This document shows, one piece after another, positions 15,114 to 63,302 of a stretch of DNA of 64,000 nucleotides (position 1 is the first letter of the stretch; the number at the start of each line of letters is the position of its first letter). Under the pieces are notes generated by a model that worked only from the letters and a program-made list of their open reading frames with translations, was not told the DNA's origin and made no database searches. The position numbers and the translations under genes were made by a program. The DNA is from Antedon mediterranea (lineage: Eukaryota > Echinodermata > Crinoidea > Comatulida > Antedonidae): assembly GCF_964355755.1 (NCBI RefSeq), contig NC_092674.1:6267001-6331000 (forward strand), read 5' to 3'.

Positions 15114-15284
15114 TTGAAAAAAAAAAAAAAAAAGTTGTTAAATAATACAAAGTGTTGCAAAAAGATTTTGTATAAAAAAATACATCCATAGAATACATCT
15201 ATAGAATTTTAAAAAAATGCTATTCCACAGTACAACATTGAGGGTGAAAGAGTTTGCTATCGAATCATATGTTTACATACCTTG

Positions 15285-17740: not shown

Positions 17741-17829
17741 ACTGCAAATTGTTAAAGGCATGACGAAATATAATATTTTTAATTTGTAATTGTTTCAGAA
17801 ATGTTTGTATAATTGATTTAATAACTGTT

Positions 17830-27796: not shown

Positions 27797-30700
27797 CTTT
27801 ATTAGGATGTAAAAATATGTAGATTGTAATATACGTGGGTGATTGCTGTATTAGGATAGAAAATGAACTAAATAAAGGTGGTGGCACCATCCACATTAAT
27901 CTTAATAACTTAACTTAATGAAAAATAATCTGGCGCTGGGTTGTCAAAGGCGGGTGTGTAGAAAGCGACGACCTCGAATTGGACGACCCCAACGACCCGG
28001 GCGACCTCGAATTGGACGACCTAGAATTGGACGACCCATAACACGAAACCGACGACCCCTATAATAGCCTAGCCTAGCCTAGGCCTAAGTATGGTATAAC
28101 ATCCCGAAGCCGAACATAACCAAAGATCTTTAAACCATACCTTATATAATACTCGCAAGCAAGCAATTGATTGAAAAAAATACAGAAATATCGCCATTTG
28201 ACAGGTATAGTATGTAGTTGTTTTTTGATAACAGAGAACTATCACTTATGCCATCCTCGTATATAATTAATTTCGTACGGAAAATACATTTAATTGATTA
28301 TATCATTAGATAGAGTATCATTCTTAGAATTAATTGTCAGTAATATATATAATTTTTTAAATGTTAGGGATATATTTTAAAATAACTATAAATAGATATA
28401 TAATTACACAAACTCAAGATGTTCTTTTCTGCCTGAAACCTAGGCCGAGGAGGGAGCTATATATCCAATACCAAATTGGCGAGTAAATCATGTTTTACTT
28501 TAAATTAAATTTATACGCTCTTCCACAAGGTCAATTGTTAGTTATACATACAGACTATATTAAAACAATGATTTTGAACACGTAGGGCATTTCTTTGAAT
28601 TCTTTCCTATTGTCGTTTTGTGGTAATTTACAGCTTTTTATATGTTTAACAAACGTACATAATCAATTGCGTCTGCATCATGCTAGACTACAACTTCCGG
28701 TAGTGACGTAATCAGCATATTTTTGGTAATAAAACTTTTTCACTAAGCTAGGGAATCTTCTGATATCAATATTCATTAGACCGTACTTTAGTTAGCCAAT
28801 CAAAATAAACGTATAAACAATTTTGCGGCGATGTTGTTGAGGTAAAATATACTGTGTTTTACAATAACCAATTTGGTTAGAGTAAAACACAATGATAAAG
28901 AATAGGAAACATTTAATAATATGATAAATGTCATTACATAGCAATTTATCACTGTGTTTTACTATAACCAATTTGGTTAGAGTAAAACACAATGATATAG
29001 AATAGGCAACATTTAATAATACGATAAATGACATTTACATAGCAATTTAGCACTGTGTTTTACTATAAACAATTTGGTCAAAGTAAAGCAGAATGATAAA
29101 GAATAGGAATTTAATAATATGATATATGACATTTACATAGCAATTTAGCACTGTGTTTTACTATAACCAATTTGGTTAGAGTAAAACACAATGATAAAGA
29201 ATAGGAAACATTTAATAATATGATATATGACATTCACATAGCAATTTAGCACTGTGTTTTACTATAACCAATTTGGTTAGAGTAAAACACAATGATATAG
29301 AATAGGAAACATTTAATAATTTGATAAATGACATTTACATAGCAATTTGCACTGTGTTTTACTATAACCAATTTGGTTAAAGTAAAACACAATGATAAAG
29401 AATAGGAAACACTTAATAATATGATAAATGACATTCACATAGCAATTTAGCACTGTGTTTTACTATAACCAATTTGGTTAGAGTAAAACACAATGATATA
29501 GAATAGGAAACATTTAATAATTTGATAAATGACATTTACATAGCAATTTGCACTGTGTTTTACTATAACCAATTTGGTTAAAGTAAAACACAATGATAAA
29601 GAATAGGAAACACTTAATAATATGATAAATGACATTTACATAGCAATTTAGCACTGTGTTTTACTATAACCAATTTGGTTAAAGTAAAGCAGAATGATAA
29701 AGAATAGGAATTTAATAATATGATATATGACATTTACATAGCAATTTAGCACTGTGTTTTACTATAACCAATTTGGTTAGAGTAAAACACAATGATAAAG
29801 ATTAGGAAATATTTAATAATAATGATTATTTACATAGCAATTTAGCACTGTGTTTTACTATAACCAATTTGGTTATAGTAAAACACAATGATATAGAATA
29901 GGAAACATTTAATAATATGATAAATGACATTTACATAGCAATTTATCACTGTGTTTTACTATAACCAATTTGGTTAGAGTAAAACACAATGATAAAGAAT
30001 AGGAAACATTTAATAGTAATGATTATTTACATAGCAATTTAGCACTGTGTTTTACTATAACCAATTTGGTTATAGTAAAACACAATGATAAAGAATAGGA
30101 AACATTTAATAATATGATATATGACATTCACATAGCAATTTAGCACTGTGTTTTACTATAACCAATTTGGTTAGAGTAAAACACAATGATATAGAATAGG
30201 AAACATTTAATAATTTGATAAATGACATTTACATAGCAATTTAGCACTGTGTTTTACTATAAACAATTTGGTTAAAGTAAAGCAGAATGATAAAGAATAG
30301 GAATTTAATAATATGATATATGACATTTACATAGCAATTTAGCACTGTGTTTTACTATAACCAATTTGGTTAGAGTAAAACACAATGATAAAGAATAGGA
30401 AACATTTAATAATATGACATATGACATTCACATAGTAATTTAGCACTGTGTTTTACTATAACCAATTTGGTTAGAGTAAAACACAATGATATAGAATAGG
30501 AAACATTTAATAATTTGATAAATGACATTTACATAGCAATTAGCACTGTGTTTTACTATAACCAATTTGGTTAAAGTAAAACACAATGATAAAGAATAGG
30601 AAACACTTAATAATATGATAAATGACATTTACATAGCAATTTAGCACTGTGTTTTACTATAACCAATTTGGTTAAAGTAAAGCAGAATGATAAAGAATAG

Positions 30701-33700
30701 GAATTTAATAATATGATATATGACATTTACATAGCAATTTAGCACTGTGTTTTACTATAACCAATTTGGTTAGAGTAAAACACAATGATAAAGATTAGGA
30801 AATATTTAATAATAATGATTATTTACATAGCAATTTAGCACTGTGTTTTACTATAACCAATTTGGTTATAGTAAAACACAATGATATAGAATAGGAAACA
30901 TTTAATAATATGATAAATGACATTTACATAGCAATTTATCACTGTGTTTTACTATAACCAATTTGGTTAGAGTAAAACACAATGATAAAGAATAGGAAAC
31001 ATTTAATAATAATGATTATTTACATAGCAATTTAGCACTGTGTTTTACTATAACCAATTTGGTTAGAGTAAAACACAATGATAAAGATTAGGAAATATTT
31101 AATAATAATGATTATTTACATAGCAATTTAGCACTGTGTTTTACTATAACCAATTTGGTTATAGTAAAACACAATGATATAGAATAGGAAACATTTAATA
31201 ATATGATAAATGACATTTACATAGCAATTTATCACTGTGTTTTACTATAACCAATTTGGTTAGAGTAAAACACAATGATAAAGAATAGGAAACATTTAAT
31301 AATAATGATTATTTACATAGCAATTTAGCACTGTGTTTTACTATAACCAATTTGGTTATAGTAAAACACAATGATAAAGAATAGGAAACATTTAATAATA
31401 TGATATATGACATTCACATAGCAATTTAGCACTGTGTTTTACTATAACCAATTTGGTTAGAGTAAAACACAATGATATAGAATAGGAAACATTTAATAAT
31501 TTGATAAATGACATTTACATAGCAATTTAGCACTGTGTTTTACTATAACCAATTTGGTTAAAGTAAAACACAATGATAAAGAATAGGAAACACTTAATAA
31601 TATGATAAATGACATTTACATAGCAATTTAGCACTGTGTTTTACTATAACCAATTTGGTTAAAGTAAAGCAGAATGATAAAGAATAGGAATTTAATAATA
31701 TGATATATAACATTTACATAGCAATTTAGCACTGTGTTTTACTATAACCAATTTGGTTAAAGTAAAACACAATGATAAAGAATAGGAAACATTTAATAAC
31801 ATGATAAATGTCATTACATAGCAATTTAGCACTGTGTTTTACTATAACCAATTTGGTTAGAGTAAAACACAATGATAAAGAATAGGAAATATTTAATAAT
31901 AAGGATTATTTACATAGCAATTTAGCACTGTGTTTTACTATAACCAATTTGGTTATAGTAAAACACAATGATATAGAATAGGAAACATTTAATAATATGA
32001 TAAATGACATTTACATAGCAATTTATCACTGTGTTTTACTATAACCAATTTGGTTATGGTAAAGCACAATGATATAGAATAGGAAACATTTAATAATATG
32101 ATAAATGACATTTACATAGCAATTTAGCACTGTGTTTTACTATAACCAATTTGGTTAAAGTAAAACATAATGATAAAGAATAGGAAACATTTAATAATAT
32201 GATAAATGACATTTACATAGCAATTTATCACTGTGTTTTACTATAACCAATTTGGTTATGGTAAAGCACAATGATATAGAATAGGAAACATTTAATAATA
32301 TGATAAATGTCATTACATAGCAATTTAGCACTGTGTTTTACTATAACCAATTTGGTTAGAGTAAAACACAATGACAAAGAATAGGAAACATTTAATAATA
32401 ATGATTATTTACATAGCTAGCAATTTAGCACAATGTTTTACTATAACCAATTTGGTTATGGTAAAGCACAATGATATAGAATAGGAAACATTTAATAATA
32501 TGATAAATGTCATTACATAGCAATTTAGCACTGTGTTTTACTATAACCAATTTGGTTAGAGTAAAACACAATGATAAAGAATGGGAAACATTTTAATAAC
32601 ATGATAAATGACATTCACATAGAAATTTAGCACTGTGTTTTACAATAACCAATTTGATTAGAGTAAAGCACAATGATAAAGAATATGAAACATTCAATAA
32701 TATGATAAATGACATTTACATAGTAATTTATCACTGTCTTTTACTATAACCAATTTGGTTAGAGTAAAACATTTTAACTATGATAAATGATATTTAGCAC
32801 TGTGCTGGATACAGTAAAACACAAATTAAGAATAGGAAACATATAATAATATGATACATTTACATACAAATTTAGTATTGTGTTTTACTATAGCCAATTT
32901 GGTTACAGTAAAACACAATGATAATGAAACATTTATTATATGATATTATTTACATAGCAAAATATTATATTAAACATATCTTATTATCTAAACGTTATGA
33001 AAAGAATAGGATACATATAATGTAATAATATAATAAATACAAGTTACATAGTTTATCATCTTGTTTTACAGAACCAATTTGGTAACACAGTTAAACACAG
33101 TGATAAAGAATAGATACTGTTTTAGGTTATATAACCCTAACCCTAGTTTGAAGCGACATAATAAATTCATCGCGAAAAAGTACGTATCGTATTTAGAAAC
33201 TTTTGAAATTTGTTAGATATGTTTAATAGGTTCTTACGTCTATAAAACAAACAAAAAATATAAATTTCACAAAAAATTCGTGATTTTAATAATTTGCATT
33301 TCTAAAAATGTACACTTATGAAATACCATACATTTTCCAACACATTTTTACTTCATTGATGATTCCCAGAAATCAAAATAAAACAAATTATGATATTTCT
33401 TTTACATTATAGATGTAAGAACCTATATTGAACATGTACCAAATTTCAAACGTTTTTTAAGACGATACGTATATTTTTATCGATGAATTAAGTATGTGAT
33501 CGCTTCAAACTAGGGTTAGGGTTAAATAACCTAACAGTTCCATTCTTTAACACTGTGTTTAACTTGTAACCAAATTGGTTTTAGTACAACACAATGATAA
33601 ACTATGTACATTTTATTTTTCATATTACATTATAGGATACATATAATGTAATAATAATAAATACAAGTTACATAGTTTATCATCTTGTTTTACAGAACCA

Positions 33701-36700
33701 ATTTGGTTACACAGTTAAACACAATGATAAAGAATAGACACTGTTTTAGGTTATATAACTCTAACCTTAGTTTGAAGCGATCACATACTTAATTCATCGC
33801 GAAAAAATACGTATCGTATTCAGAAACATTTGAAATTTGGTAAATATGTTCAATAGGTTCTTACGTCTATAAAACAAACAAAAAATAAAAGTTTCAAGAC
33901 AAATTCGTGATTTTAATAATTTGCATTTCTAAACATTTACACTTATGAAAGACAATACATTTCCAACACATTTTTACTTCATTGATGATTCTCAGAAATC
34001 AAAATAAAACTATTAGGATATTTCTTTTGCATTTTAGATGTAAGAACCTATATTGAACATATCTACCAAATATCAAACGTTTTTCAAGACGATACGTATT
34101 TTTAGCGATGAATATTAAATATGTGATCGCTTCAAACTAGGGTTAGGGTTAAATAAACTAAAACAGTTCTATTCTTTATCACTCACTGTGTTTAACTTTT
34201 AACCAAAATGGTTATAGTAAAACACAATGATAAACTTATATGTCAATTTTATTTTTCATAACATAAAATGTTTGATATTCTTTATAATATTTAATATTAT
34301 ATTTTAGGCCTACTATTAATGACGTATAAATGCACACTACATCTGAAATAACTTTCTACTTCATTGGCGATTCTTACCAAAAAAAAAGAACTAATTTTGT
34401 TATGTATATAGAGCAACCTATTATAACATGTCTTGTATGATTTTTATCTCGTTTCAATGACATTTTATACTACAATTCAAATGAAAAAGCATCACAAAAA
34501 AATACGTCTGGTATTCAAAAAGTTTCTAAACTCGGTACACAGAAAAAAGGAAATATTGAAAATGTATGGTCTTTCATAAGTGTGAATTTTTAGAAATGCA
34601 AATAATGGAAATCATCGATTTGTCTTGAAATTTATAATTTGTTTTGTCTTATTGAACATATCTATACAAAATGTCAAACGTTTCTGAATACGATACGTTT
34701 TTTTTCTCGATGAATTTATAATGTCGCTTCAAACTAGAGGGTAGGGTAGTAACCTAACAAGTATCTATTCTTTATCACTATGTTTAACTGTGTAACCATA
34801 TTGGTTCTAATAAAAAACAATGATAAACTATGTAAATTGTATGTTTCATATAATTACATTTTTTCAAAAAAAAAATTATTGGGAATGTCAAATTTCTTTT
34901 TCATGACATATATCTACAAATTTCAGAAGCTTTTGAGTACGAGTATTTTACGCGATGTTTTTTTATCCTCATTTTAATATTTTGGTAATGTAATTCACAT
35001 AAAGTATTATATCCAAAAATTGTTTATTCTTGGGTAGAAATGAGGAAATAAATAGTATTCCTGTATAATATAATAATCAATAATAAAGTATAAAAAAAAA
35101 TGTTGTGTAAACGAACGTTTTTTACGCTTCGAATTTTCTGTTACATTATGTTTGGATTGAAGCTACAGATATTGAATCATGGACCTATAAATTAGTAATT
35201 TATAGGTCCATGATTGAACATATCGTCACTCACCACACATTTTTTGTTTTGTATTTCGAAAGTATTTATTCTAAAGAACAATTGATGCAAACATCAACTG
35301 CGTATCTTATTTCATTAATTAATTATATTAATTATAATTTGGCGATTATTCGTCACACGAAGAGTCGAATATCGATTCGTCTCGTCATGAGAAGAAAACG
35401 TGCATTGCGCACACTGTTTACGCGCCTCAACAATAAACGGCGAATATGCGATTCGTCACTTATGGAACGCCGTTTTACACAAGTTTTTGGCGATGATAAA
35501 AATTGCATCGATGATGAAATTGCGTCGATGAAAATTGCATCGACGCAATGTAGATTGCGTCGATGCAATGTAGATTGCGTCGACGCAATTTACATTGCGT
35601 CGATGAAAATTGCATCGATGAAAATTGCGTCGATGAAAATTGCGTCGATGAAAACTGCATCGATGAAAATTGCGTCGATGAAAACTGCATCGATGAAAAT
35701 TGATGTGATGAATTTAATTGATTATGAAAATTCCAAATGGTTTTAATTCAATCAATGATGAAAATGACTACTAGTAAAGTAAATGATGATGTTAATAATG
35801 ATGTTAATAATGTTATTATGTTGCTAAAAATTGACGGTTTCTGAATATTTTGATATGATAAACATGTTTACCGCTTGCGCTAGCGCGCGTTATAGACAAG
35901 CGCACAGTGATCGCGCACTAAAACAATGTTGAAATATATGCACTGATTAACATTTTAGTGATTTATTGTCAACACATTTTAGCAATGGATCCATTATTGT
36001 CCTTTCGGACACATTATATCTTCTAGCTAATTGCTTCCGTTAATCCACCAGTTCAGTACATAAAATCCAGATGTCCAGCATCCATGACATCATATTCAAA
36101 TCATACCGGCAGGGAGATCGCAATTTTCATCGATGAAAACTGCATCGATGAAAATTTTTTTTTTTTTTCATCGATGCAGTTTTCATCGATGCAGTTTTCA
36201 TCGACGCAATTTTCATCGACGCAATTTTCATCACATTAACGCAATTTTCATTACATCGACGCAATTTTCATCGACGCAATGTTCATCACATCATTACATC
36301 AATACTATATTCATCGACGCAATTTTCATCACATCGACGCAATTTTCATTGCATCATTGACGCAATTTTATCATCGCCTAAACTGGCATTCCATACTAAT
36401 TGCGTGTGATCTGATTGGTGTATTATAAATAAATTCATCGCGATGAAATTTTCAGTAGATGTAATGAGACAGTTCAGTAGATGTAATGACAGTTAATTTA
36501 ATTGTTCTGCTCTTTTTGTACAAATCTATACTACTTTATATTATGGATTTTGTAGTACTGTTAAAATTATTAAATCTCTGGAAGTGTGTTTTACGAGTAT
36601 GTCCGCAAATTTATGCGTTTACGGTTTTAAAATGTGAGTTTTAAATAGCGAACATGATCTTGTTAGGTGCACTACGCACGCAGTATTCCAAAATGTCTTA

Positions 36701-39700
36701 CTAATTGGGAGAAAATCATATTGTATCATATCATATTATATCCATTCTTTAAATTCATATTCTTTATCCAAAACTAAATTGGTATAGTAAAACACAGTGC
36801 TAGCAATTTATCATATTATTAAATGTTTCATATTCTTTATCATTGTGTTTTACCCTAATCAAATTGGTATAGTAAAACACAGTGCTAAATTGCTATGTGA
36901 ATGTCATTTATCATATTTTTAAATGTTTCCTATTCTTTATCATTGTGCTTTACCATAACCAAATTGGTTATAGTAAAACACAGTGCTAAATTGCTATGTA
37001 AATGTTATATATCATATTATTAAATTCCTATTCTTTATCATTGTGTTTTACTCTAACCAAATTGGTTATAGTAAAACACAGTGATAAATTGCTATGTAAA
37101 TGTAATTTATCATATTATTAAATGTTTCCTATTCTTTATCATTGTGTTTTACTCTAACCAAATTGGTTATAGTAAAACACAGTGATAAATTGCTATGTAA
37201 ATGTAATTTATCATGTTATTAAATGTTTCCTATTCTTTATCGTTGAGTTTTACTCTAATCAAATTGGTTATAGTAAAACACAGTGCTAAATTGCTATGTA
37301 AATGTTATATATCATATTATTAAATGTTTCCTATTCTTTATCATTGTGTTTTACTCTAATCTGATTGGTTATAGTAAAACACAGTGCTAAATTGCTATGT
37401 GAATGTCATTTATCATGTTATTAAATGTTTCTTATTCTTTATCATTGTGTTTTACTCTAACCAAATTGGTTATAGTAAAACACAGTGATAAATTGCTATG
37501 TAAATGTAATTTATCATATTATTAAATGTTTCCTATTCTTTATCATTGTGTTTTACTCTAACCAAATTGGTTATAGTAAAACACAGTGATAAATTGCTAT
37601 GTAAATGTAATTTATCATGTTATTAAATGTTTCCTATTCTTTATCGTTGTGTTTTACTCTAATCAAATTGGTTATAGTAAAACACAGTGCTAAATTGCTA
37701 TGTAAATGTTATATATCATATTATTAAATGTTTCCTATTCTTTATCATTGTGTTTTACTCTAATCTGATTGGTTATAGTAAAACACAGTGCTAAATTGCT
37801 ATGTGAATGTCATTTATCATGTTATTAAATGTTTCCTATTCTTTATCATTGTGCTTTACTCTAACCAAATTGGTTATAGTAAAACACAGTGCTAAATTGC
37901 TAAATGTCATTTATCATGTTATTAAATGTTTCTTATTCTTTATCATTGTGTTTTACTCTAACCAAATTGGTTATAGTAAAACACAGTGCTAAATTGCTAT
38001 GTAAATGTAATTTATCATATTATTAAATGTTTCCTATTCTTTATCATTGTGTTTTACTCTAACCAAATTGGTTATAATTTATTTAATTTCATTTCAAAAG
38101 ACATTTACCTAAATTGCTATTTAAATGTCATTTATCAAATTATTAAATGTTTTCTATTATTTATCTGGTTATATAGTAAAACACTGTGCTAAATTGCTAT
38201 TGTATTAAGGACGAGTTCCGAGAAGATGTATTCAAAGCTACAACCAATCAGAACAGTGTTAATCAATATAGTCCATGGCTACAGCCAATCAGAAACGTCC
38301 AAATCGCAATAACCCCTAGGCTAATAGAAATTATTGGTCCGAGTAGCCTTTTCAACCAGACGTTGCGAGGTTTAAAAAGTAAAACATGATTTACTCGCCA
38401 ATTTGGTATAGTTTATATACCTGGAGGAGGAGGAGGCCTCCTCCTCTCCTCAGCTCTCTGCTCTCACTTCGTTCGTTTCGCTACCTGATCCGTGCAGGCC
38501 TAGGCCTAGGCTAGACTGGATATTATGATTGCAAGCCAAAAAGGTAGATTTAGAAGCATATTTTATTGATTACCCATCATCAGTGTCACCCTTAAACAGA
38601 TAGTTAAGCTATATTTGTAGGTCATAGCTTATTTCAGACAATATTTTAGCCTCCAAAAAGGGCAGATTAGGCCTAGGCCTAGTAGGCCTAGCCTAGGCCT
38701 AGGTAGAGGGCAGGCCTATAGGCTAGCCTAGTCTAGGCCTAGCTGGCTAGCTAGGGCCTAGCCTAGGCCTAGTTAGGCTAGCAACTCTATACTCTAGCTA
38801 ATAGTTTAGGCCTAAAAACTAGGTAGGCCTAGTACTACTAGGCCTACTATATGGCTAGCCTTGTCTAGCTAGGCCTAGAAATAGAAAGATCTAGCCTAGC
38901 TAGAGTAGTAGGCTAGGCTAGTAGGCCCACCTGGTTAGGCCCTACTAGGGAACTTGTAGGCTAGCTAGCTAGGCCTACTTACTAGCTAATAAGTAGCTAG
39001 GCCTAGGCTGCCTAACTAGCTAGCTCTATGTATTCTAGTTAGGGCCTAGACTAGTTTATTAGGCCTTAGTTTAGGCTGATTAGGCCTGCCTAGTCCTAGT
39101 TAAATAAATAGGCATATAACCAGGCTCAGTCTAAACACTCTAGGCCTATCTATATGAGACCTGTGCTATTAATTATAGGCCTAGGGCCTTGCTAGCTAGC
39201 CAGCAGAATGGTCTAGAGAGGCATAGGCCTAGCTAGGGATAGGCTGGGGGGTCATAGACAGCCTATCTATATAAAATATTAGATAGGTAGGTAGGAGTAT
39301 TAAGATTCATCAGTGTGTAAGTTGATTTCATTGCTAATGCCAAGGTATTAGGCCTGTTTATTTTCAGGTTGAAAGCAATGGATAAACAGAGATTCAATTC
39401 TACAACAAAAGAGACAAAAGTCAAACTCAAACTGATAATTAACAATGTTTCCAGTTAAATTAATGTTAATTATTTTAATAGATTGTAGTGACCCTAACTA
39501 CCTTACTGTTTGTGTATGGCTGTAATATTATATTAAATGTCATCACAATTAGTAAGGTTGTGAGGCTTCACAATTTCAAACAACTCTTGTGTCTCTTCTT
39601 CATGTGGATGGATTAAAAAATACTGTGAGTATTGTACACTCTTTATATGAATATATCATCAATCACAATATCAAATATGATCCGTGTAGTAACAATTTGA

Positions 39701-42700
39701 TAACTTAGCATGCATCTTATAATATCTACATCATCAATAATTAATATTAATATAAATCTACATCACAATGTTGGATATGATCTTTGTAGTCAAAATTTGA
39801 TAACTGAGCACACATCTTTTAATAACTACCTTATCAATAACTATTAATAATGTCCTATATCACATTGTTGGATATGATCAGTGTTAGTCATAATTTGATA
39901 ACTGAGCACGCATCTTTTAATATCTACCTCATCAATAATTAATATTAATAATCTATATTGCATTGTTCAATATGATCAGTGTAGTCATAATATGATAACT
40001 GAGCATGCATCTTTTAATATCTACCTTATCAATGACTATTAATAATATCCTATATCACAATGTTGGATATGATTAGTGTAGTCATAATTTGATAACTGAG
40101 CATACATCTTTAGAATTACTTTTATTTAAGTATATAAAAGAATAATCTATAATTTACAATGTTTTATATGTTGTTAATTCATCAGATATTATCTATTGAA
40201 CTGATATGGTTTTGTTTATTACAGTATAGTACATACAGCACTTTATGTTATGTTATGTTATTTATTTATTATTCAACATTTTTTGTTTGGTTTTTGACGT
40301 TATCAAATTTTTATTTTCTTTTAAGTTCTGTTATTTATTTGTTAATTTTGTAGCTTAAGTTAGTTAAGATAAAAGGTACCAAGCTTGATTAGCTTCGGCT
40401 ATACCTTGGCTACCTTTTGTATTGAAATTGTTTTTGTTTGATACAATAAAGAAGAAGAATTAATAATCTATATTACACTGTTGGATATGATCTGTTTGGT
40501 TTTTTAATATCTACCTTATCAATAACTATTAATAATATCCTATATCACAATGTTGGATATGATCAGTGTAGTCATAGTTTGATAACTGAGCATGCATCTT
40601 TAATATCTACCTCATCAATAATTATTATTAATAATCTATATCACAATGTTGGATATGATTAGTGTAGTCATAATTTGATAACTGAGCACGCATCTTTCAA
40701 TATCTATTTCATCAATAATTATTATTAATAATCTATATCACATAGTTGGATATGATCAGTGTAGTCATAAATTGATAACTGAGCAAAAATCTTTTAATAT
40801 CTGCATCATCATTAATTAATATTAATAATCTATATCAAACTGTTGGATATGATCTGTTTAGTTTTTTAATATCTATCTTTTCCATAACTATTAATAATAT
40901 TCTATATCACAATTTTGGATATGATCAGTGTAATCATAGTTTGAACTACCTCAACAATAATTAATATTAATTGTCTATATACCAATATCAAATATGATCA
41001 GTGTAGGCCTAGTCATTTGATAACTGAGCATGCATCATTTTATATCTGCTTCAAATATTAATATTGTCTTAATATAATAAGTGGTTTGAAGGATGTTTGC
41101 AGATGGCCTTTTTTGCATTGTAAAGTTCAATTTATCCAAAAGGTCAAATTTTGACCTATTTCAATAAAATCATTTCATAAGTTGTCTTCTTTTATAGTTT
41201 TAGTGATAATCAATATTAAGTGGTTTTTTACCCCAAAAATGTCAAACCTAGAGCTATTTAATAATAAAATGATTTTATAAATTGTCTTCTTTTATATTTC
41301 TAGTAGTGGTATAATCAGTATTCAATTGTTTGAATGATGTTTGTGGGGTATTTTTTAATTAAGTTTACGCAGTTTACATGGTAAAATCTGTCAATTATCC
41401 AAAATTGACATTTTTCACTCCTAAAAAAATCTTAGAGCCATTTCAATAAAATTATTTCATAAATTGTCCTCTTTTTATGGTTCTAATAAGGATATAATCA
41501 AAGTGGTTTGGATGATGTTTGTGGGGTGTTTTTTAAAAGTTTGCACAGTTTACATGGTAAAATGTGTCAATTTATTCCTAGAGCTATTTCAATAAAATTA
41601 TTTCATAATCACCCCAAAAATGTCAAACCTAGAACATTTTAATAAAATGATTTCATAAATTGTCTTCTTTTATAGTTCTAGTAGTGGTATAATCAGTATT
41701 CAATTGTTTGAATGATGTTTGTGGGGTATTTTTTAATTAAGTTTACGCAGTTTACATGGTAAAATCTGTCAATTATCCAAAATTGACATTTTTCACTCCT
41801 AAAAAAATCTTAGAGCCATTTCAATAAAACTATTTCATAAATTGTCCTCTTTTATAGTTCTAATAATGATATAATCAATATTAAGTGGTTTGGATGATGT
41901 TTGTGGGGTGTTTTTTAAAAGTTTGCACAGTTTACATGGTAAAATGTGTCAATTTATACCTAGAACTATTTTAATAAAATGATTTCATAAATTGTCCTCT
42001 TTTATAGTTCTAGTAGTGGTATAATCAATATTAAGTTGTTTGGATGATGTATGTGGGGTGTTTTTTTAAAGTTTGCACAGTTTACATGGTAAAATCTGTC
42101 AATTTATCCAAAGTTTACATTTTTCACCCTAAAAAATCAAACCTAGAGCTATTTCAATGAAATTATTTCATAAATTGTCCTCTTTTATAGTTCTTGTAGT
42201 GGTATAATCAATATTAAGTTGTTTGGATGATGTTTGTGGGTGTTTTTTTAAAGTTTGCATTAAGTTTACGCAGTTTAAATGGTAAAATCTGTAAATTTAT
42301 CCAAAATTGACATTTTTCACCCTAAAAAGTCAAACTTCAGAGCTATTTCAATAAATTGATTTCAAAAATTCTCTTCTTTTACAGTTCTAGTAGTGATATA
42401 ATCAATATTAAGTTGTTTGGATGATGTTTGTGGGGTGTTTTTGTTAAGTTAGCATTAAGTTTACGCAGTTTACATGGCAAAATCTGTAAATTTATCCAAA
42501 ATTGACATTTTTTACCCTAAAAATTCAAACCAGAGCTATTTCAATAAAATTATTTCATAAACTGTCCTCTTTTATAGTTCTAGTAGTGGTATAATCAATA
42601 TTAAGTTGTTTGGATGATGTTTGTGGGTGTTTTTTTAAAGTTTGCATTAAGTTTACGCAGTTTACATGGTAAAATCTGTAAATTTATCCAAAATTGACAT

Positions 42701-45700
42701 TTTTTACCCTAAAAATTCAAACCTAGAGCTATTTCAATAAAATTATTTCATAAATTGTCCTCTTTTATAGTTCTAGTAGTGGTATACTCAATATTAAGTG
42801 GTTTGGATGATGTTTGTGGGGTGTTTTTTTAAAGTTTGCACAGTTTACATGGCAAAATCTGTAAATTTATCCAAAATTGACATCTTTTACCCTAAAAATT
42901 CAAACCTAGAGCTATTTCAATGAAATTATTTCATAAATTGTCCTCTTTTATAGTTCTTGTAGTGGTATAATCAATATCAAGTTGTTTGGATGATGTTTGT
43001 GGGTGTTTTTTTAAAGTTTGCATTAAGTTTATGCAGTTTAAATGGTAAAATCTGTAAATTTATCCAAAATTGACATTTTTCACCCTAAAAAGTCAAACTT
43101 AGAGCTATTTCAATAAATTGATTTCAAAAATTCTCTTCTTTTGCAGTTCTAGTAGTGATATAATCAATATTAAGTTGTTTGAATGATGTTTGTGGGGTGT
43201 TTTTGTTAAGTTAGCATTAAGTTTACGCAGTTTACATGGCAAAATCTGTAAATTTATCCAAAATTGACATTTTTTACCCTAAAAATTCAAACCAGAGCTA
43301 TTTCAATAAAATTATTTCATAAACTGTCCTCTTTTATAGTTCTAGTAGTGGTATAATCAATATTAAGTTGTTTGGATGATGTTTGTGGGTGTTTTTTTAA
43401 AGTTTGCATTAAGTTTACGCAGTTTACATGGTAAAATCTGTAAATTTATCCAAAATTGACATTTTTTACCCTAAAAATTCAAACCTAGAGCTATTTCAAT
43501 AAAATTATTTCATAAATTGTCCTCTTTTATAGTTCTAGTAGTGGTATACTCAATATTAAGTGGTTTGGATGATGTTTGTGGGGTGTTTTTTTAAAGTTTG
43601 CACAGTTTACATGGCAAAATCTGTAAATTTATCCAAAATTGACATCTTTTACCCTAAAAATTCAAACCTAGAGCTATTTCAATGAAATTATTTCATAAAT
43701 TGTCCTCTTTTATAGTTCTTGTAGTGGTATAATCAATATCAAGTTGTTTGGATGATGTTTGTGGGTGTTTTTTTAAAGTTTGCATTAAGTTTATGCAGTT
43801 TAAATGGTAAAATCTGTAAATTTATCCAAAATTGACATTTTTCACCCTAAAAAGTCAAACTTAGAGCTATTTCAATAAATTGATTTCAAAAATTCTCTTC
43901 TTTTGCAGTTCTAGTAGTGATATAATCAATATTAAGTTGTTTGAATGATGTTTGTGGGGTGTTTTTGTTAAGTTAGCATTAAGTTTACGCAGTTTACATG
44001 GCAAAATCTGTAAATTTATCCAAAATTGACATTTTTTACCCTAAAAATTCAAACCAGAGCTATTTCAATAAAATTATTTCATAAACTGTCCTCTTTTATA
44101 GTTCTAGTAGTGGTATAATCAATATTAAGTTGTTTGGATGATGTTTGTGGGTGTTTTTTTAAAGTTTGCATTAAGTTTACGCAGTTTACATGGTAAAATC
44201 TGTAAATTTATCCAAAATTGACATTTTTTACCCTAAAAATTCAAACCTAGAGCTATTTCAATAAAATTATTTCATAAATTGTCCTCTTTTATAGTTCTAG
44301 TAGTGGTATACTCAATATTAAGTGGTTTGGATGATGTTTGTGGGGTGTTTTTTTAAAGTTTGCACAGTTTACATGGCAAAATCTGTAAATTTATCCAAAA
44401 TTGACATCTTTTACCCTAAAAATTCAAACCTAGAGCTATTTCAATGAAATTATTTCATAAATTGTCCTCTTTTATAGTTCTTGTAGTGGTATAATCAATA
44501 TTAAGTTGTTTGGATGATGTTTGTGGGTGTTTTTTTAAAGTTTGCATTAAGTTTACGCAGTTTAAATGGTAAAATCTGTAAATTTATCCAAAATTGACAT
44601 TTTTCACCCTAAAAAGTCAAACTTCAAAGCTATTTCAATAAATTGATTTCAAAAATTCTCTTCTTTTACAGTTCTAGTAGTGATATAATCAATATTAAGT
44701 TGTTTGAATGATGTTTGTGGGGTGTTTTTGTTAAGTTAGCATTAAGTTTACACAGTTTACATGGCAAAATCTGTAAATTTATCCAAAATTGACATTTTTT
44801 ACCCTAAAAATTCAAACCAGAGCTATTTCAATAAAATTATTTCATAAATTGTCCTCTTTTATAGTTCTAGTAGTGGTATAATCAATATTAAGTTGTTTGG
44901 ATGATGTTTGTGGGTTTTTTTTTAAAGTTTGCATTAAGTTTACGCAGTTTACATGGTAAAATCTGTAAATTTATCCAAAATTGACATTTTTTACCCTAAA
45001 AATTCAAACCTAGAGCTATTTCAATAAAATTATTTCATAAATTGTCCTCTTTTATAGTTCTAGTAGTGGTATACTCAATATTAAGTGGTTTGGATGATGT
45101 TTGTGGGGTGTTTTTTTAAAGTTTGCACAGTTTACATGGCAAAATCTGTAAATTTATCCAAAATTGACATCTTTTACCCTAAAAATTCAAACCTAGAGCT
45201 ATTTCAATGAAATTATTTCATAAATTGTCCTCTTTTATAGTTCTTGTAGTGGTATAATCAATATTAAGTTGTTTGGATGATGTTTGTGGGTGTTTTTTTA
45301 AAGTTTGCATTAAGTTTACGCAGTTTAAATAGTAAAATCTGTAAATTTATCCAAAATTGACATTTTAAAACACAAACTAGGTTGTAAAAAGTGAAGGAAG
45401 TCATTATATTTTAATATTGTTTGGTAATAAAGATGCCTATCATAGTCAAATGGCAATAACTGATTAGCCGAGACCAATGACATTTAAAACAACTCCTACT
45501 TAAAATTCCCTACTTATACAGTACAGCAGCTTTTTGATTGGCTGCAAGTTTAGTTTTCTGTTCGTTCATCAGAAATGGTATAAATAATTATTAATCAATA
45601 AGATTACTGGATTTCTTTAGTATTTCTGACACATTTCAAATCTTAATTGAATTATTAATGTAATGGAAATTTGTCATAGGCCTATTATAGCAACATATCA

Positions 45701-48700
45701 TTTCTGGAAGAGTATTACGGTCTGAATAGATCGATGTTAAAACACACGTCCTCATTTATCAAATTATTCATTCACTGCACATTTATTCTGTTAAGAAGAA
45801 CTGGGACCCTCAATAGAAGCCAAAGCATGTCTCATGATGGCCCCTACAATACATATCAAACATAAAAAGATATGGAATATTTTTATTTTTACAACGGCAC
45901 ACGTTCATCATAAACGATGCGTTCTTAAAAGTATAAATTTAAACAGCAAACGGATACAAATCAATAGGGTAATTAGGAACAAAAGAATAACACATTTTCA
46001 AAACCCATCGACTCGATCTCTTGTATACAGTGAATCTAACAAAATCACACTGATCATATCCAACATTAAGTATTAATAATTATTATTGATTAGGTAGATA
46101 TTAAAAGATGCGTTATAACAAATTATGAATATACAGATCATATCCAACAATGTGACATAGATTATTAATAATAATTATTGATGAGGTAGATATTTAAAGA
46201 TGCGTGCTCAGTTATCAAATTATGACTACACTGATTATATCCAACAATGTGATATAAGATATTAATAATAATTATTGATGAGGTAGATATTGAAAGATGC
46301 GTGCTCAGTTATCAAATTATGACTACACTGATCATATCCCACAATGTGATATAGATTATTATTAATAATTATTGATGATGTAGATATTGAAAGATGCGTA
46401 CTCAGTTATCAAATTCTGACTACACTGATCATATCCAACAATGTGATATAAGATATTAATAATAATTATTGATGAGGTAGATATTCAAAGATGCGTGCTC
46501 AGTTATCAAATTATGACTACACTGATCATATCCCACAATGTGATATAGATTATTATTAATAATTATTGATGATGTAGATATTTAAAGATGCGTGCTCAGT
46601 TATCAAATTATGACTACACTGATCATTTCCAACAATGTGATATAAGATCTTAATAATAATTATTGATGAGGTAGATATTTAAAGATGCGTGCTCAGTTAT
46701 CAAATTATGACTACACTGATCATATCCAACAATGTGATTTAGATTATTAACATTAATTATTGATGAGGTAGATATTAAAAGATGCGTGCTCAGTTATCAA
46801 ATTATGACTACACTGATCATATCAAACAATGTGCTATAGATTATTAATAATAATTATTGATGAGGTAAACATTTAAAGATGCGTGCTCAGTTATCAAATT
46901 ATGACTACACTGATCATATCCAACAATGTGATATAAGATATTAATAATAATTATTGATGAGGTAGATATTAAAAGATGCGTGCTCAGTTATCAAATTCTG
47001 ACTACAATGATCATATCGAACAATGTGATATATGATATTATTAATAATTATTGATTAGGTGGATATTTAAAGATGCGTGCTCAGTTATCAAATTATGACT
47101 ACACTGCCACAATGTGATATAGATTATTATTAATAATTATTGATGATGTAGATATTTAAAGATGCGTGCTCAGTTATCAAATTATGACTACACTGATCAT
47201 ATCCAACAATGTGATATAAGATCTTAATAATAATTATTGATGAGGTAGATATTAAAAGATGCGTGCTCAGTAATCAAATTATGACTACACTGATTATATC
47301 CAACAATGTGATATAGATTATTAATAATAATTATTGATGAGGTAGATATTTAAAGATGCGTGCTCAGTTATCAAATTATGACTACACTGATCATATCCAA
47401 CAATGTGATTTAGATTATTAACATTAATTATTGATGAGGTAGATATTAAAAGATGCGTGCTCAGTTATCAATTAATTATGACTACACTGATCATATCAAA
47501 CAATGTGCTATAGATTATTAATAATAATTATTGATGAGGTAAACATTTAAAGATGCGTGCTCAGTTATCAAATTATGACTACACTGATCATATCCAACAA
47601 TGTGATATAAGATATTAATAATAATTATTGATGAGGTAGATATTAAAAGATGCGTGCTCAGTTATCAAATTCTGACTACAATGATCATATCGAACAATGT
47701 GATATATGATATTATTAATAATTATTGATTAGGTGGATATTTAAAGATGCGTGCTCAGTTATCAAATTATGACTACACTGATCATATCCAAAAATGTGAT
47801 ATAGATTATTATTAATAATTATTGATGCTGTAGATATTTAAAGATGCGTGCTCAGTTATCAAATTATGACTACACTGATCATATCAAACAATGTGCTATA
47901 GATTATTAATAATAATTATTGATGAGGTAGATATTAAAAGATGCGTGCTCAGTTATCAAAATATGACTACACTGATTATATCCAACAATGTGATATAGAT
48001 TATTAATAATAATGATTGATGCTGTAGATATTTAAAGATGCGTGCTCAGTTATCAAATTCTGACTACACTGATCATATCCAACAATGTGATATAAGATAT
48101 TAATAATAATTATTGATGAGGTAGATATTAAAAGATGCGTGCTCAGTTATCAAATTATGACTACACTGATCATATCCCACAATGTGATATAGATTATTAT
48201 TAATAATTATTGATGATGTAGATATTTAAAGATGCGTGCTCAGTTATCAAATTATGACTACACTGATCATATCAAACAATGAGATATAAGATATTAATAA
48301 TAATTATTGATGAGGTAGATATTAAAAGATGCGTGCTCAGTAATCAAATTATGACTACACTGATTATATCCAACAATGTGATATAGATTATTAATAATAA
48401 TTATTGATGAGGTAGATATTTAAAGATGCGTGCTCAGTTATCAAATTATGACTACACTGATCATATCCAACAATGTGATTTAGATTATTAACATTAATTA
48501 TTGAAGAGGTAGATATTAAAAGATGCGTGCTCAGTTATCAAATTATGACTACACTGATCATATCAAACAATGTGCTATAGATTATTAATAATAATTATTG
48601 ATGAGGTAAACATTTAAAGATGCGTGCTCAGTTATCAAATTATGACTACACTGATCATATCCAACAATGTGATATAAGATATTAATAATAATTATTGATG

Positions 48701-51700
48701 AGGTAGATATTAAAAGATGCGTGCTCAGTTATCAAATTCTGACTACACTGATCATATCGAACAATGTGATATATGATATTATTAATAATTATTGATTAGG
48801 TGGATATTTAAAGATGCGTTCTCAGTTATCAAATTATGACTACACTGATCATATCCAAAAATGTGATATGGATTATTATTAATAATTATTGATGATGTAG
48901 ATATTTAAAGATGCGTGCTCAGTTATCAAATTATGACTACACTGATCATATCAAACAATGTGCTATAGATTATTAATAATAATTATTGATGAGGTAGATA
49001 TTAAAAGATGCGTGCTCAGTTATCAAATTATGACTACACTGATTATATCCAACAATGTGATATAGATTATTAATAATAATTATTGATGAGGTAAGATATT
49101 TAAAGATGCGTGCTCAGTTATCAAATTCTGACTACACTGATCATATCCAACAATGTGATATAAGATATTAATAATAATTATTGATAAGGTAGATATTAAA
49201 AGATGCGTGCTCAGTTATCAAATTATGACTACATTGATCATATCCCAAAATGTGATATAGATTATTATTAATAATTATTGATGAGGTAAACATTTAAAGA
49301 TGCGTGCTCAGTTATCAAATTATGACTACACTGATCATATCCAACAATGTGATATAAGATATTAATAATAATTATTGATGAGGTAGATATTAAAAGATGC
49401 GTGCTCAGTTATCAAATTCTGACTACACTGATCATATCGAACAATGTGATATATGATATTATTAATAATTTTTGATTAGGTGGATATTTAAAGATGCGTG
49501 CTCAGTTATCAAATTATGACTACACTGATCATATCCAAAAATGTGATATGGATTATTATTAATAATTATTGATGATGTAGATATTTAAAGATGCGTGCTC
49601 AGTTATCAAATTATGACTACACTGATCATATCAAACAATGTGCTATAGATTATTAATAATAATTATTGATGAGGTAGATATTAAAAGATGCGTGCTCAGT
49701 TATCAAATTATGACTACACTGATTATATCCAACAATGTGATATAGATTATTAATAATAATTATTGATGAGGTAAGATATTTAAAGATGCGTGCTCAGTTA
49801 TCAAATTCTGACTACACTGATCATATCCAACAATGTGATATAAGATATTAATAATAATTATTGATAAGGTAGATATTAAAAGATGCGTGCTCAGTTATCA
49901 AATTATGACTACACTGATCATATCCCAAAATGTGATATAGATTATTATTAATAATTATTGATGATGTAGATATTTAAAGATGCGTGCTCAGTTATCAAAT
50001 TATGACTACACTGATCATATCCAACAATGTGATATAAGATATTAATAATAATTATTGATGAGGTAGATATTAAAAGATGCGTGCTCAGTAATCAAATTAT
50101 GACTACACTGATCATATCCAACAATGTGATTTAGATTATTAACATTAATTATTGATGAGGTAGATATTAAAAGATGCGTGCTCAGTTATCAAATTATGAC
50201 TACACTGATCATATCCAACAATGTGATATAAGATATTAATATTAATTATTGATGAGGTAGATATTAAAAGATGCGTGCTCAGTTATCAAATTCTGACTAC
50301 ACTGATCATATCGCACAATGTGATATATTAGTAATAATTATTGATGAGGTAGATATTAAAAGATGCGTGCTCAGTTATCAAATTTTGACTACACTGATTA
50401 TATCGAACAATGTGATATAGATTATTAATAATAATTATTGATGAGGTAGATATTAAAAGATGCGTGCTCAGTTATCAAATTCTGACTACACTGATCATAT
50501 CGCACAATGTGATATAGATTATTAGTAATAATTATTGATGAGGTAGATATTAAAAGATGCGTGCTCAGTTATCAAATTTTGACTACACTGATTATATCGA
50601 ACAATGTGATATAGATTATTAATAATAATTATTGATGAGGTAGATATTAAAAGATGCGTGCTCAGTTATCAAATTCTGACTACACTGATCATATCGAACA
50701 ATGTGATATAGATTATTAAAAATAATTATTGATGAGGTAGATATTAAAAGATGCGTGCTCAGTTATCAAATTATGACTACACTGATCATATCCAACAATC
50801 TGATATATGATATCAATGCTAATTATTGATGAGGTAGATATTAAAAGATGCGTGCTCAGTTATCAAATTGTAACTACACTGATCATAATACTATACATAG
50901 TCCTTTATGCATTAGACATTGATTTAGTAGTACTACATATCATTTGTTATATTAAGAATGTTGTTTTAGTGTTATTAAAATACTTATCGAATTTTTTTGA
51001 AAATAAAAATATTAGTATTGGTACCTATAAATTTATATATTATAATAACATGCTAGATGTTATAATAATGTGATCTTTATTACAACTAAGAAACAGTTAT
51101 GTACGAGGATGATACACACTGATAGTTCTCAGTTATCAAAAAACGACTACACAATATAGCTCCATTTGATACTGAATGTGTCGACACGAACAAACGAACA
51201 GATATGGAACGCCAAGAGTGCATCATTAAAACTGCATTCGACTCGATTAGCACACGAAATATCATAAACATGGCAAACCAGGCCCTTTTTCAGCGGCAGG
51301 TAAGGTTTGACCATGGAGGTATATGGTTTGACCAGCTCCATGGTTTGGTAAAAATATTTTATACCTCCATGGTTTGACCGTATACAATGCATGTGTGAAA
51401 TGTAAAGCTTTCTTATGGCCCTCCCCATGCAGGATTAGGCCAAGTTGAGCCGCCGACAAGTTGAGGCGCCGCCAAAAACGTTATTTTCTATGAAACGCCA
51501 AATGCTTACTTTCGCCGGTGCTCGTTTCTATTTAATAGAAGTTCTATTTATATTAATTATTAGATATAACGATGTATATTCCAAAGTTTATATATCACGG
51601 TTTTCAGTATATATTATTAAATATTATAATTAAAGAGAAATAATTATGAATATCTGACTTGTAGATTCCAAAATATAAGGCCTAAAACATGACCGAAAAT

Positions 51701-54700
51701 GATCGTTTTTAGCCAAAAATGACGTAAACATGTTGCCCCCTCAGGCGGCAGTTGAAGTAAAATAATTGCATAAAATCACCGTTTTTTAGTAAAATATTTT
51801 GTGTATTAACATTGTAAAATTCAATAAAATATGATATTAAAAGATAGTAAATAAAAAATAATAATTATTTAACCTCATTCGAAGAATATCAATACTCTAT
51901 TAGTCCTGAGAGACAACGTGATTTTACGTGGTAGGCATACACGCGAGAAAAATATTATGGAGTGCACTGCATTTTTACCTTGAAAGATTAAAAACAATTA
52001 AATTATTAAATATGACTACAGTACTTTCCTTTGCTGTTTCAAACCAACAAAATTGTAGTATGTAATTATTATTTATTTTCATGACACAATAAACCTAAAG
52101 ACCATGAACTTATGTAGGGCCTACTAGGACACCACTCTATCACTACGCGAAATGTCGTAAAAGACGCACTGGCCGTTTCATAGAAATTACCGGCGGCTCA
52201 ATTTGTCGGCGGCCCAACCGGTCATATCCCCCCATGCACATGTTACGCTGCTTGGTAGGCCTATAGTGTTCGTTATAAGAAGACGAGATGTAATTATACG
52301 TCCATGGTTTAACCATGTATTGTATAATATTTATTTCTTTTTAATTTATTTTTAATATGTCGAATGCAGTTTTAATGATGCACTCTTGGCGTTCCATATC
52401 TTTTCGTTTGTTCGTGTCGACACAATCAGTATCAAATGGCGATATTTCTGTATTTTTTCAATCAATTGCTTGCTTGCGAGTATTATATAATAAGGTATAG
52501 TTTAAAGATCTTTGGCTATGTTCGGCTTCGGGATGTTATACCACACTTAGGCCTAGGCTAGGCTATAGGGGTCGTCGGTTTCGTGTTATGGGTCGTTCAA
52601 TTCGAGTTCGTTCAATTCGAGGTCGCCCGGGTCGTTGGGGTCGTCCAATTCGAGGTCGTCGCTTTCTACACACCCTGTCAAAGGCCTCTATCAAAAAGTG
52701 GTCAGGTTGAAACCTTACCAACCGTACTGGTTGCTAGAGCCCTGCTCAATAGTTGTATTGGACAGGTCGGTTTTGAGGAGATCTGTAGCTCTTCAGACTC
52801 CTCGCTGTTTCTGTATGAGCACTGGATGCGATTAGATCTTTTGCAAACAGTTTGAATAGCTCATAATACGCCTAAAATATACATCTACAGCAATCAATAT
52901 ACAGCATACCTGTCTCCAGTAGTACGTTGTTCTCACGGACACAACATCAACACCTTCACCAAATGTGTCTCCACGTGCTATAATTTTGTCTGCCACAAAT
53001 GTACGTTGTCCTTCTTCTCTATCGGGTATATTACTGTTTTGGAAGATAAACAACAAATCAATTGAGTACCATACTATAACATTGGTATACAAGTGATATG
53101 CCATATGGATAATGATAAAGAATATCGAACCAGCATGAGAGAAGCATAGGTTTGAGATATGTCCATTCCATGTTGCTTCTATCCTTATACTTTATATATA
53201 ACGATAAATACTTTACTCTCATACTTCGGATAAGACATAAAGCTGTTCATGATTCCACATATGCACGATAACAAATTTGTTACACTATTTGGAAATTAGC
53301 TGATTGCCATTCTAATACTGAAGAGATCACCATCTAACCTTACTCTAATGTAAAAACTCATTTGACTTGAAATTGTCATAAAATTGTGTTTATGTGAAAA
53401 TTTAACATTGTTTTTACCAGGAGGATTACCTGATTGTATCATTGTAAACATCTTTAAATTCTGGAGCTCTTTCTAAAGTTGTAATGTGAACATATATTGA
53501 ATAGTCATTAGTAACCACTTGTGTCAGAGGTAGCAACGGATGAGTCAGTGTGCGACCTGAAAATAAAAAATGAGTTTATCATATATCATATAACACATTT
53601 TTTTTTTATTCAATTTTTTTTAAACCACTTTAGCTTCAAGGGGCGCCTCAGATAAAAAATACAGTACAAATATAGTTAAACAATAAAGAACAGTACATCA
53701 ATCAAATCTTCCAGAATTAACAAGAAATTGTACATAATAAAACAATGGAGTATTTTCAAGAGTCAAAAGAAGATCAGATCCAAAAATAAAATTTTCACTT
53801 AAACAATTTAAATTATAGGCCTACTGTTAAAGAATAATCCTCGACTAAGATATCCTCGATAATTAAGTTAGCGATTACATCTCTTTGTAGATTATAATTT
53901 AGGGCAATAACATACGAAATGAAGCGGATTCTCAACATTAAAGTCACAAGTAAAATTTGGATTGTCTCATAGTCCATGGAAAAATAAATGCAAATTGAAA
54001 CAAGTCGGATTCAGTGTGAATTTGGTATTATAATCATACTTCAAACTGTTAATTATTCAGGGACACAAATAATTTGATGATAACAGAGAGAAAAAATTTA
54101 AGGATTTCATAAATTGATTTGATTAATCTGTCATAGGAATCAAGTTTTTCAGAGACTGTATCATTGAATTATACATTTGATAAATGAAGAAACTTAAAGA
54201 TCAATACATTTAATAGTCCAGAAATAAAGATGCTTATTAACAAAAAAACAAAATAGTTAAGCATACCTTGAACTGATTCTGCACAAACAAGAAAAAAAAA
54301 GATAAATATTATATACGTATTATAATTATAAATTGTTTATCTATATTGTAAATAACAACAATAATAATTCTTGTGAGGCAAACAAAATATATATATATAT
54401 ATAAATCCAAAGGCAAATTACTGAAAAAAATGACAATGCTGTGGGTATCAGTGGCTGGATCTCAATGGAGATACAAAAATAAAAAGCGAAAAGCTAAATC
54501 AAAACGATAAAGTAAACAGCCAGAAAAGTTAGCAGAGCTTTCGGGCAACACTAGCCCTTCATCAGTGCAAGTGAAGGAATTTGGATAACGTCATATATAT
54601 ATATATATATATAAACATTTACAAGCATTAGAGGAAATTCTAAAACACCTGGTTATAAACTGAATGTTATATTTGGAAATTTGGATACAGTAGAACCTCT

Positions 54701-62505: not shown

Positions 62506-62777
<272 letters not shown>

Positions 62778-62792
62778 ACAAGAGGCAAAGAA

Positions 62793-62880
62793 CATTAATT
62801 CTAAACCGCCCGGTGATATACTGAAATTTAATTAATTAATTTGAAACGATAAAGATGAGGAAATCTGTGAGAATGAGAAA
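62793..62880 (-). mobile_element. SINE tail, inverted relative to 63161-63262
   Basis: 'attaattctaaaccgcccgg', 'tatactgaaatttaattaat' and 'aaatctgtgagaatgagaaa' are the inverse of the tail following the tRNA-like head at 63085. Confidence 0.8.
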
Positions 62881-63084
62881 AAGTTCTTTGCCTGCTGTGT
62901 TTATATATATAAAAAGTATCTCCTTGGAGATCCCGCCTCGTGAATAAAAATACTGAAAGATGAGGGGGTATCAATTTGATCTCTGTTGCGCGTGCGTACA
63001 ACTGAGGACTAGTGCTGTTCCTCCGTACCACGCCGAGAATGTTAAAGAGTCGCTATCCAATCGAGTTTGAACAATACCATGAAA

Positions 63085-63262
63085 GCCCCAGTGGTCTAAT
63101 GGTTAGGGCAACTGCATATCAAGCAGACGGTCCGAGTTCGAGTCTCGGTTGGGGCGACTTTTTCTCATTCTCACAGATTTCCTTATCTTTATCGTTTCAA
63201 ATTAATTAATTAAATTTCAGTATATCACCGGGTGGTTTAGAATTAATGTTCTTTGCCTGCTG
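63085..63262 (+). mobile_element. tRNA-like SINE with tail
   Basis: 63085-63156 folds as a tRNA: acceptor GCCCCAG/TTGGGGC (last pair G-T), D stem, anticodon stem with one A-A mismatch, perfect T stem CCGAG/CTCGG with loop TTCGAGT, and anticodon position ATC. The tail 'ctcacagatttccttatctt' to 'ggtttagaattaatgttctt' is repeated inverted at 62793-62880, and a related head occurs at 15285. It is therefore more likely a SINE head than a working tRNA gene. Confidence 0.7.
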
Positions 63263-63263
63263 T

Positions 63264-63269
<6 letters not shown>

Positions 63270-63302
<33 letters not shown>
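63270..63302. repeat. (TA)n microsatellite
   Basis: About 16 TA dinucleotides at the end of the SINE-like segment. Confidence 0.9.

Follow-up and report, generated by a model that had tools for sequence, protein, structure and literature searches.

A satellite-rich 24.7-kb unit in an intron of a predicted CACHD1-like gene of the crinoid Antedon mediterranea is very probably a nest of three transposon insertions

We report that a repeat-filled unit of 24.7 kb, which takes up nearly all of one intron of a predicted CACHD1-like gene in the crinoid Antedon mediterranea, is very probably a three-level nest of separate insertions of the cut-and-paste type and not one 24.7-kb element. The analysed genome comprises 354,431,138 bases in 18 contigs, and the window referred to throughout is the 64,000-nucleotide stretch C5:6267001-6331000 (feature coordinates are collected in Table 1). 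The three insertions are nested by containment, and each carries a target site duplication (TSD) of the length seen in its own multi-copy family. As we picture it, a 1.76-kb non-coding element of the foldback type (level 1) would have entered the intron and created a 10-bp duplication, a non-coding element of approximately 13 kb (level 2) would have entered the left terminal inverted repeat (TIR) of level 1 and created the duplication CATTTGA, and level 3, a relative of level 2 measuring 10 kb, would sit inside level 2 flanked by GAGGAGG. The arms of levels 2 and 3 would be inverted satellite arrays that were brought in pre-formed, and the level 2 satellite has a 28-bp motif of that element's own end.

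An earlier reading of the window from its letters (the sequence-only reading) had described TIRs of about 250 bp with their outer 60 bp or so identical, a perfect 10-bp direct duplication around them, and an intron filled by the unit except for some 370 bp; these observations were borne out. The terminal 20-mer of level 1, GGGTGTGTAGAAAGCGACGA, has one match per window strand (27952, + strand, and 52656, opposite strand; level 1 end sequence, GGGTGTGTAG), and the outer ends align over 250/244 bp at 92.5% identity with the first 63 bp identical. Within the window the duplication TGTCAAAGGC is found at 27942 and 52676 only, where it adjoins the element ends exactly; from base composition approximately 3.5e-6 such matches are expected by chance, and 103 were found among 2,000,000 random pairs of flank 10-mers. 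The host intron (27797-52909) measures 25,113 bp, and 379 bp once the unit is taken out. Inverted ends with a perfect 10-bp duplication at the outer limits are also what a single non-autonomous Mutator-like element of 24.7 kb, transposing whole with satellites as its cargo, would display. That interpretation, which the sequence-only reading had favoured, is nevertheless highly improbable given the interior insert and the family copies described below.

Other copies with 9-10-bp duplications, for which a genome check had been proposed in that reading, do exist. The level 1 terminal 20-mer has 191 exact matches genome-wide (92 forward and 99 reverse; reversed control, 0), and among the first 100 places listed we tested the 34 convergent pairs whose ends are separated by under 30 kb, the window's own pair excluded. 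A perfect 10-bp TSD was present in 26/34 pairs, one more had 9 bp, and L022 matched at 9 of 10 positions; no duplication was seen for L028, a 15.8-kb pair, L038, L041 and L043, and L012 had been cut at the wrong end. The 30 other listed ends gave 25 regions, eight of which contained a second end (≤5 mismatches), with a perfect 10-bp duplication in 5 of those 8; two end pairs, on C4 (43.5 kb) and C1 (89.5 kb), had no common duplication. The modal length of level 1 is 1.7-1.8 kb, and its consensus, built from the window copy and 16 chosen copies of 1.67-1.78 kb, has a TIR of 322 bp carrying 15-bp units in variable number. The outer TIR domain is 92 bp in 37 arms, 77 bp in 5 and 59-96 bp in six (18/66 arms were unscored). 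Level 1 has the long TIRs with short internal tandem repeats of variable number that define foldback elements. Its end sequence had no match when compared with viral contigs.

When the window unit was compared by BLAST with 33 of the 34 sister pairs (L012 left out), matches were confined to the level 1 parts in 27952-28201 and 51148-52675, except that the 15.8-kb pair had an additional short match near 33.8 kb. The insert between these parts has ends and a 7-bp duplication of its own (level 1/level 2 junction sequence, ATCGCCATTTGACAGGTATAGTATG). With 28202-51169 removed and the flanks joined at one copy of the common CCATTTGA, that is, left and right level 1 parts minus one CATTTGA copy, 1,756 bp remain, which align over their full length to nine ordinary copies of 1.74-1.78 kb at 95.3-97.8% identity, gaps counted. 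Conversely, the level 2 insertion point is read through unbroken by at least one arm in 29/32 level 1 copies, and the window copy minus its insert differs from the consensus by 0.2% substitutions (other copies, 0.3-1.2%). Removal of the insert thus restores an ordinary family member, and the 24.7 kb represents an ordinary, young level 1 element interrupted by 23 kb of inserted sequence. The 34 other level 1 pairs include no TSD-bearing one longer than 5.8 kb, and neither these nor the other ten pairs of level 2 match the composite in length. The proposal of one 24.7-kb element with satellite cargo therefore fails, since the satellites belong to nested families with 7-bp TSDs that are also present elsewhere in the genome; long satellite-carrying elements do exist, as levels 2 and 3, and they are not the makers of the 10-bp duplication.

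One candidate within level 1 was rejected: the stretch 51148-52452, considered as a foldback insert of 1.27 kb within the right TIR, is part of the ordinary level 1 element, and its apparent 9-bp repeat GTGTCGACA falls within a palindrome. Some copies elsewhere have features of their own. L020 (C2:13811975-13813926) and L021 (C2:13845082-13851071) lie 31 kb apart with 10-bp duplications that are mutually reverse-complementary, and their fetched 100-bp flanks align inverted, inside >99% matches; they are probably an inverted duplication containing one insertion, and L021 alone has an additional 4.1-kb insert with inverted ends. In L009 and L011 there are different inserts, which have inverted ends of their own and are edged by 8-bp repeats (GCCTAGCC and AACACGAA, the former situated within a short tandem repeat). 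The ends L049, L052 and L064 have only the outer level 1 TIR in common, over ~38 to 115 bp as judged by eye, beyond which they diverge; possibly these are relatives with other middles, or a coding partner. Reverse-transcriptase-like open reading frames (ORFs), judged by eye, are present near the lone ends L054, L057 and L063.

Level 2 belongs to a family of its own. A 98-base probe from its left end gave 40 scored genome matches (49 candidates), comprising at least 26 left ends at 98-100% (including the window's), two partial matches at 83-85% and 12 right ends at 83-84%. These form 11 convergent pairs, ten of them with spans of 12.0-14.4 kb and the eleventh, in the window, spanning 22,961 bp; level 2 minus level 3 and its duplicate is 12,984 bp, which matches the span of the other copies. 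At both of the other pairs for which flanks were read the TSDs are 7 bp, GTAGTGA and TAGATAG. A level 2 right end and a left end that face each other 73 kb apart (C1:27182633 and 27255841) were excluded from the pair count.

The terminal octamers of level 2 recur in level 3 in the opposite order (level 2/level 3 junction sequence, CTAGGCCGAGGAGGGAGCTATATATCC). Within the window CAGGTATA occurs at 28202 (+) and 38423 (-) only, one end per element, and GAGCTATA at the opposite ends of levels 2 and 3 and at two unrelated places. Genome-wide, a 29-base core adjoining the level 3 ends is matched 59 times on each strand at ≤3 mismatches (control, 0+0), and among the places listed 41 convergent pairs, including the window's, were recognised by eye, 33 of them spanning 5.2-10.8 kb core to core. 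A perfect 7-bp TSD was present in 15/19 pairs tested: eleven match over exactly 7 bp and four over 8, where the extra base is the terminal G of the element. The remaining pairs comprise one 6-bp match with a shifted boundary and three without duplication, each with one altered end; among the 38 ends 18 carry GAGCTATA, 17 CAGGTATA and 3 are altered. Two whole copies elsewhere resemble the window copy throughout, one of 6,895 bp being covered completely and one of 5,029 bp over 5,024 bp, and in these two a 143-aa frame in L109 is the only stop-free one to reach 110 aa.

Six satellite array intervals make up 14,364 of the 24,724 bp of the unit. Inverted arrays lie in both arms of each satellite-rich element, of satellite A in level 3 and of satellite D in level 2, but the strictly matching ends extend over only ~47-65 bp. 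Satellite A was present inside 20/20 level 3 loci (18 elements), which were cut out at exact core matches and all lie at sites other than the window, with 14-24 profile hits per locus (both strands counted; the monomer is palindromic). Satellite D has 24 of 28 bp in common with the right end of level 2, a score that was reached by 0/300 dinucleotide shuffles for the right arm and 4/300 for the left. Each of the scores obtained against the ends with satellite A, satellite E and the 15-bp repeat was, by contrast, reached by at least 31/300 shuffles. Monomers within arrays diverge by ~5-6% (left D arrays, 13.5%), and the nearest neighbour of a monomer lies mostly in its own array (A, 39/40 and 10/12; right D, 47/49; left D, 3/7). 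Local amplification thus does occur, as would be expected had the satellites expanded in situ after insertion of a small element, a course proposed for Tetris-type arrays in Drosophila. Such an origin is very unlikely here, given a host copy 0.2% from its consensus against the monomer divergence just cited and the presence of satellite A at level 3 sites elsewhere. Because the host copy has diverged far less than the monomers have and satellite A is present in sister copies of level 3, the arrays came with the elements: those of level 3 arrived pre-formed, and those of level 2 appear to have done so too.

Satellite-rich inverted repeats are difficult to assemble, and a false join of inverted ends could be imagined. 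Such an artefact is extremely improbable: three junction pairs each carry the duplication length of their own family, which misjoins would not create, and the deposited gene model connects exons on either side of the unit.

Several observations weigh against the three-level nest. Seven of the 34 level 1 pairs are without a perfect 9- or 10-bp duplication, the TSD support for level 2 comes from only 2 of its 10 other pairs, and the presence of satellites in other level 2 copies is judged from their 12-14-kb length. The GAGGAGG duplicate in the window sits in a GGA-rich stretch and is weak by itself, so the case for a level 3 TSD rests on the family. Finally, no transposase was found at any level, in searches of which none was aimed at a P-type transposase or the THAP domain. 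The sequence-only reading had likewise seen no transposase, and when 10 ORFs of the unit (including one of 211 aa) were scanned, no Pfam family reached the cut-off, with three weak matches below it.

With no transposase found, superfamily assignments rest on duplication length and ends. Levels 2 and 3 may well be parts of one transposition system, because they have the same asymmetric terminal octamers and 7-bp duplications, the sequence behind being family-specific. A transposase of the P superfamily type perhaps moves them, because the duplication is 7 bp as in Galileo (15/19 level 3 pairs and 2/2 level 2 pairs read). The TSD of hAT elements is 8 bp, and the window's level 2 copy permits an 8-bp reading, CCATTTGA. 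The families nevertheless show 7 bp, with eleven level 3 pairs at exactly that length, four 8-bp cases that need the element's terminal G, and the two level 2 duplications GTAGTGA and TAGATAG; we therefore regard a hAT-type transposase, in place of a P-type one, as unlikely for levels 2 and 3. Helitrons and Helentrons, the latter being of the rolling-circle type, have neither a long TIR nor a multi-base TSD, and they were ruled out by the inverted ends and the 7- or 10-bp TSDs. Level 1 (10 bp in 26/34 pairs and in the window) falls within the 8-11 bp given for the Mutator superfamily (PMC6446971), and was probably moved in trans by a transposase of that type.

Known foldback and satellite-carrying elements resemble the three levels in different respects. 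The TU elements of sea urchin (attributed to Liebermann et al. 1983) are reportedly echinoderm foldback elements with outer TIR domains of 15-bp repeats, dissimilar middles and a TSD of 8 bp. By this description, L049, L052 and L064 likewise have only the outer TIR of level 1 in common, whereas the level 1 TSD is 10 bp. The Mutator/Foldback element Tm1 of Meloidogyne is characterised by TIRs with 13-15-bp repeats in variable number, TSDs of 8-10 bp and a mean TIR identity of 93.15% (PMC3169594); level 1 is similar in its 15-bp units of variable number and its window TIR identity of 92.5%. Tm1 has a transposase-coding member, in contrast to level 1 for which none was found, and its ends are asymmetric whereas those of level 1 are symmetric (PMC3169594).

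Tetris, a foldback element of Drosophila virilis, is like the present elements in being non-autonomous and modular with tandem repeats in inverted arms, and its satellite unit has 37 bp in common at ~80% with the flanking TIR domain (PMC4079207), comparable to the 24 of 28 bp of satellite D and the level 2 end. Its TSD of 8-10 bp resembles that of level 1 and is unlike those of levels 2 and 3, and its TIRs of up to 1.7 kb contrast with satellite-armed elements here of mostly 5-14 kb with 7-bp TSDs (PMC4079207). Galileo (Drosophila, P superfamily) has 7-bp TSDs, a foldback-like structure and variable internal tandem repeats in its arms, as do levels 2 and 3; its TIRs are at most ~1.2 kb with up to three internal repeats (PMC3573991), against tens of copies here. 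The Cg_HINE Helentrons of oyster are similar as non-autonomous mobile elements that spread satellite-like arrays (PMC7492417), and differ from the elements reported here, which have inverted ends and TSDs of fixed length. Among the papers listed in our literature search none dealt with crinoid transposons of this kind, and we claim no wider absence.

We tentatively suggest, as a possibility about which we are undecided, that levels 2 and 3 represent two families in a hitherto undescribed DNA transposon group, defined by the asymmetric end octamers (CAGGTATA / GAGCTATA) and 7-bp duplications, whose non-coding members of 5-14 kb consist largely of satellite arrays derived from their own ends and still move whole, and which may therefore spread satellites through crinoid euchromatin and introns beyond what unequal exchange alone would do. 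Nested transposons, foldback transposons and satellites within mobile elements are already known; the unusual points here are how large and how numerous the non-coding elements with preserved short duplications and nearly identical ends are, and the fact that two families have asymmetric octamers in common. Cut-and-paste movement reportedly declines with length, its efficacy falling above 6 kb of cargo, and in one study no Pack-MULE was longer than 7 kb (PMC6431247). Here, the dispersed non-coding elements measure mostly 5-11 kb in level 3 and 12-14 kb in level 2, with short duplications intact in 15/19 and 2/2 pairs read, respectively, which makes it testable in one genome how a transposase unites ends 12 kb apart, and likewise whether foldback elements create and spread satellites as proposed for Tetris. 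Satellite arrays can thus travel around the genome inside DNA transposons, and a long unit full of repeats can mislead when a clean duplication frames it, as that duplication belongs to the outermost element only.

Table 1. Features of the nested unit (window positions)
Feature	Position	Strand	Basis
Level 1, left 10-bp target duplication, TGTCAAAGGC	27942..27951		exact match, chance test
Level 1, left part (outer 250 bp of left TIR, 15-bp sub-repeats)	27952..28201	+	end alignment, copy comparison
Level 2, left 7-bp target duplication CATTTGA	28195..28201		junction reading
Level 2 element, 22,961 bp including level 3, ends CAGGTATA / GAGCTATA	28202..51162	+	ends, TSD, family copies
Level 3, left 7-bp target duplication GAGGAGG	28447..28453		junction reading
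Level 3 element, 9,970 bp, ends GAGCTATA (left) / CAGGTATA (right)	28454..38423	-	ends, TSD, family copies
Satellite A array, 101 bp, ~39 copies, level 3 left arm	28851..32771	+	repeat analysis
Inverted arm pair of 15-bp repeats (GATGAAAATTGCGTC), middle of level 3	35485..36382		repeat analysis
Satellite A array, inverted, level 3 right arm	36805..38076	-	repeat analysis
Level 3, right 7-bp target duplication GAGGAGG	38424..38430		junction reading
Satellite D arrays, 97 bp (39675-40111, 40502-40862), level 2 left side	39675..40862	-	repeat analysis
Satellite E array, 193 bp, level 2 middle, between D arrays	41811..45366		repeat analysis
Satellite D array on the right side of level 2, in opposite orientation to that on the left	46071..50887	+	repeat analysis
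Level 2 right terminal region, 28-bp motif common with satellite D	51097..51161	-	motif alignment
Level 2, right 7-bp target duplication CATTTGA	51163..51169		junction reading
Level 1, right part (remaining left TIR, middle, right TIR)	51163..52675	+	copy comparison, consensus
Level 1, right 10-bp target duplication	52676..52685		exact match, chance test

The host gene is, as judged from protein comparison, CACHD1-like, in agreement with the sequence-only reading: a hand-spliced 879-aa model matched CACHD1 (PDB 8s7c) at 2.2e-52 and alpha2delta-1 at 6.8e-20, while a shorter piece of 328 aa showed a slight reverse preference (alpha2delta-1, 8e-15; CACHD1, 1.2e-12). Its best protein match is a CACHD1-like protein of Antedon mediterranea, which aligned to 15 stretches of the window, seven at 97-100% identity and the others at 70-93%; two of the latter, bordering the unit, extend into intron sequence. 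The exons that flank the unit are neighbours in the deposited protein (P0001).

Other repeats were noted elsewhere in the window. An Rfam match to 5S rRNA at 27277-27399 (42.3 bits; gathering score 38) opens a repeat that resembles a short interspersed element, and stretches of 23991-24229 are similar to 27309-27614 (80-91%). The satellite at 354-4063 has an 89-bp unit and others related to it, all of which contain an inverted GCGCAGA...TCTGCGC stretch, and it also shows longer periods (285, 374 and 444 bp). Two homogeneous minisatellites at 17350-18504 have units of 82 bp (4.2 copies, 97%) and 56 bp (12.1 copies, 99%). AT microsatellites are present at 62509-63302, where the inverted flanks 62775-62884 and 63157-63266 are 96% identical; a 97-bp stretch (54503-54599) recurs at 62366 (97%). 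A tRNA match (52.4 bits) lies at 63085-63156, and the surrounding stretch is similar to 15218-15384 (72%).

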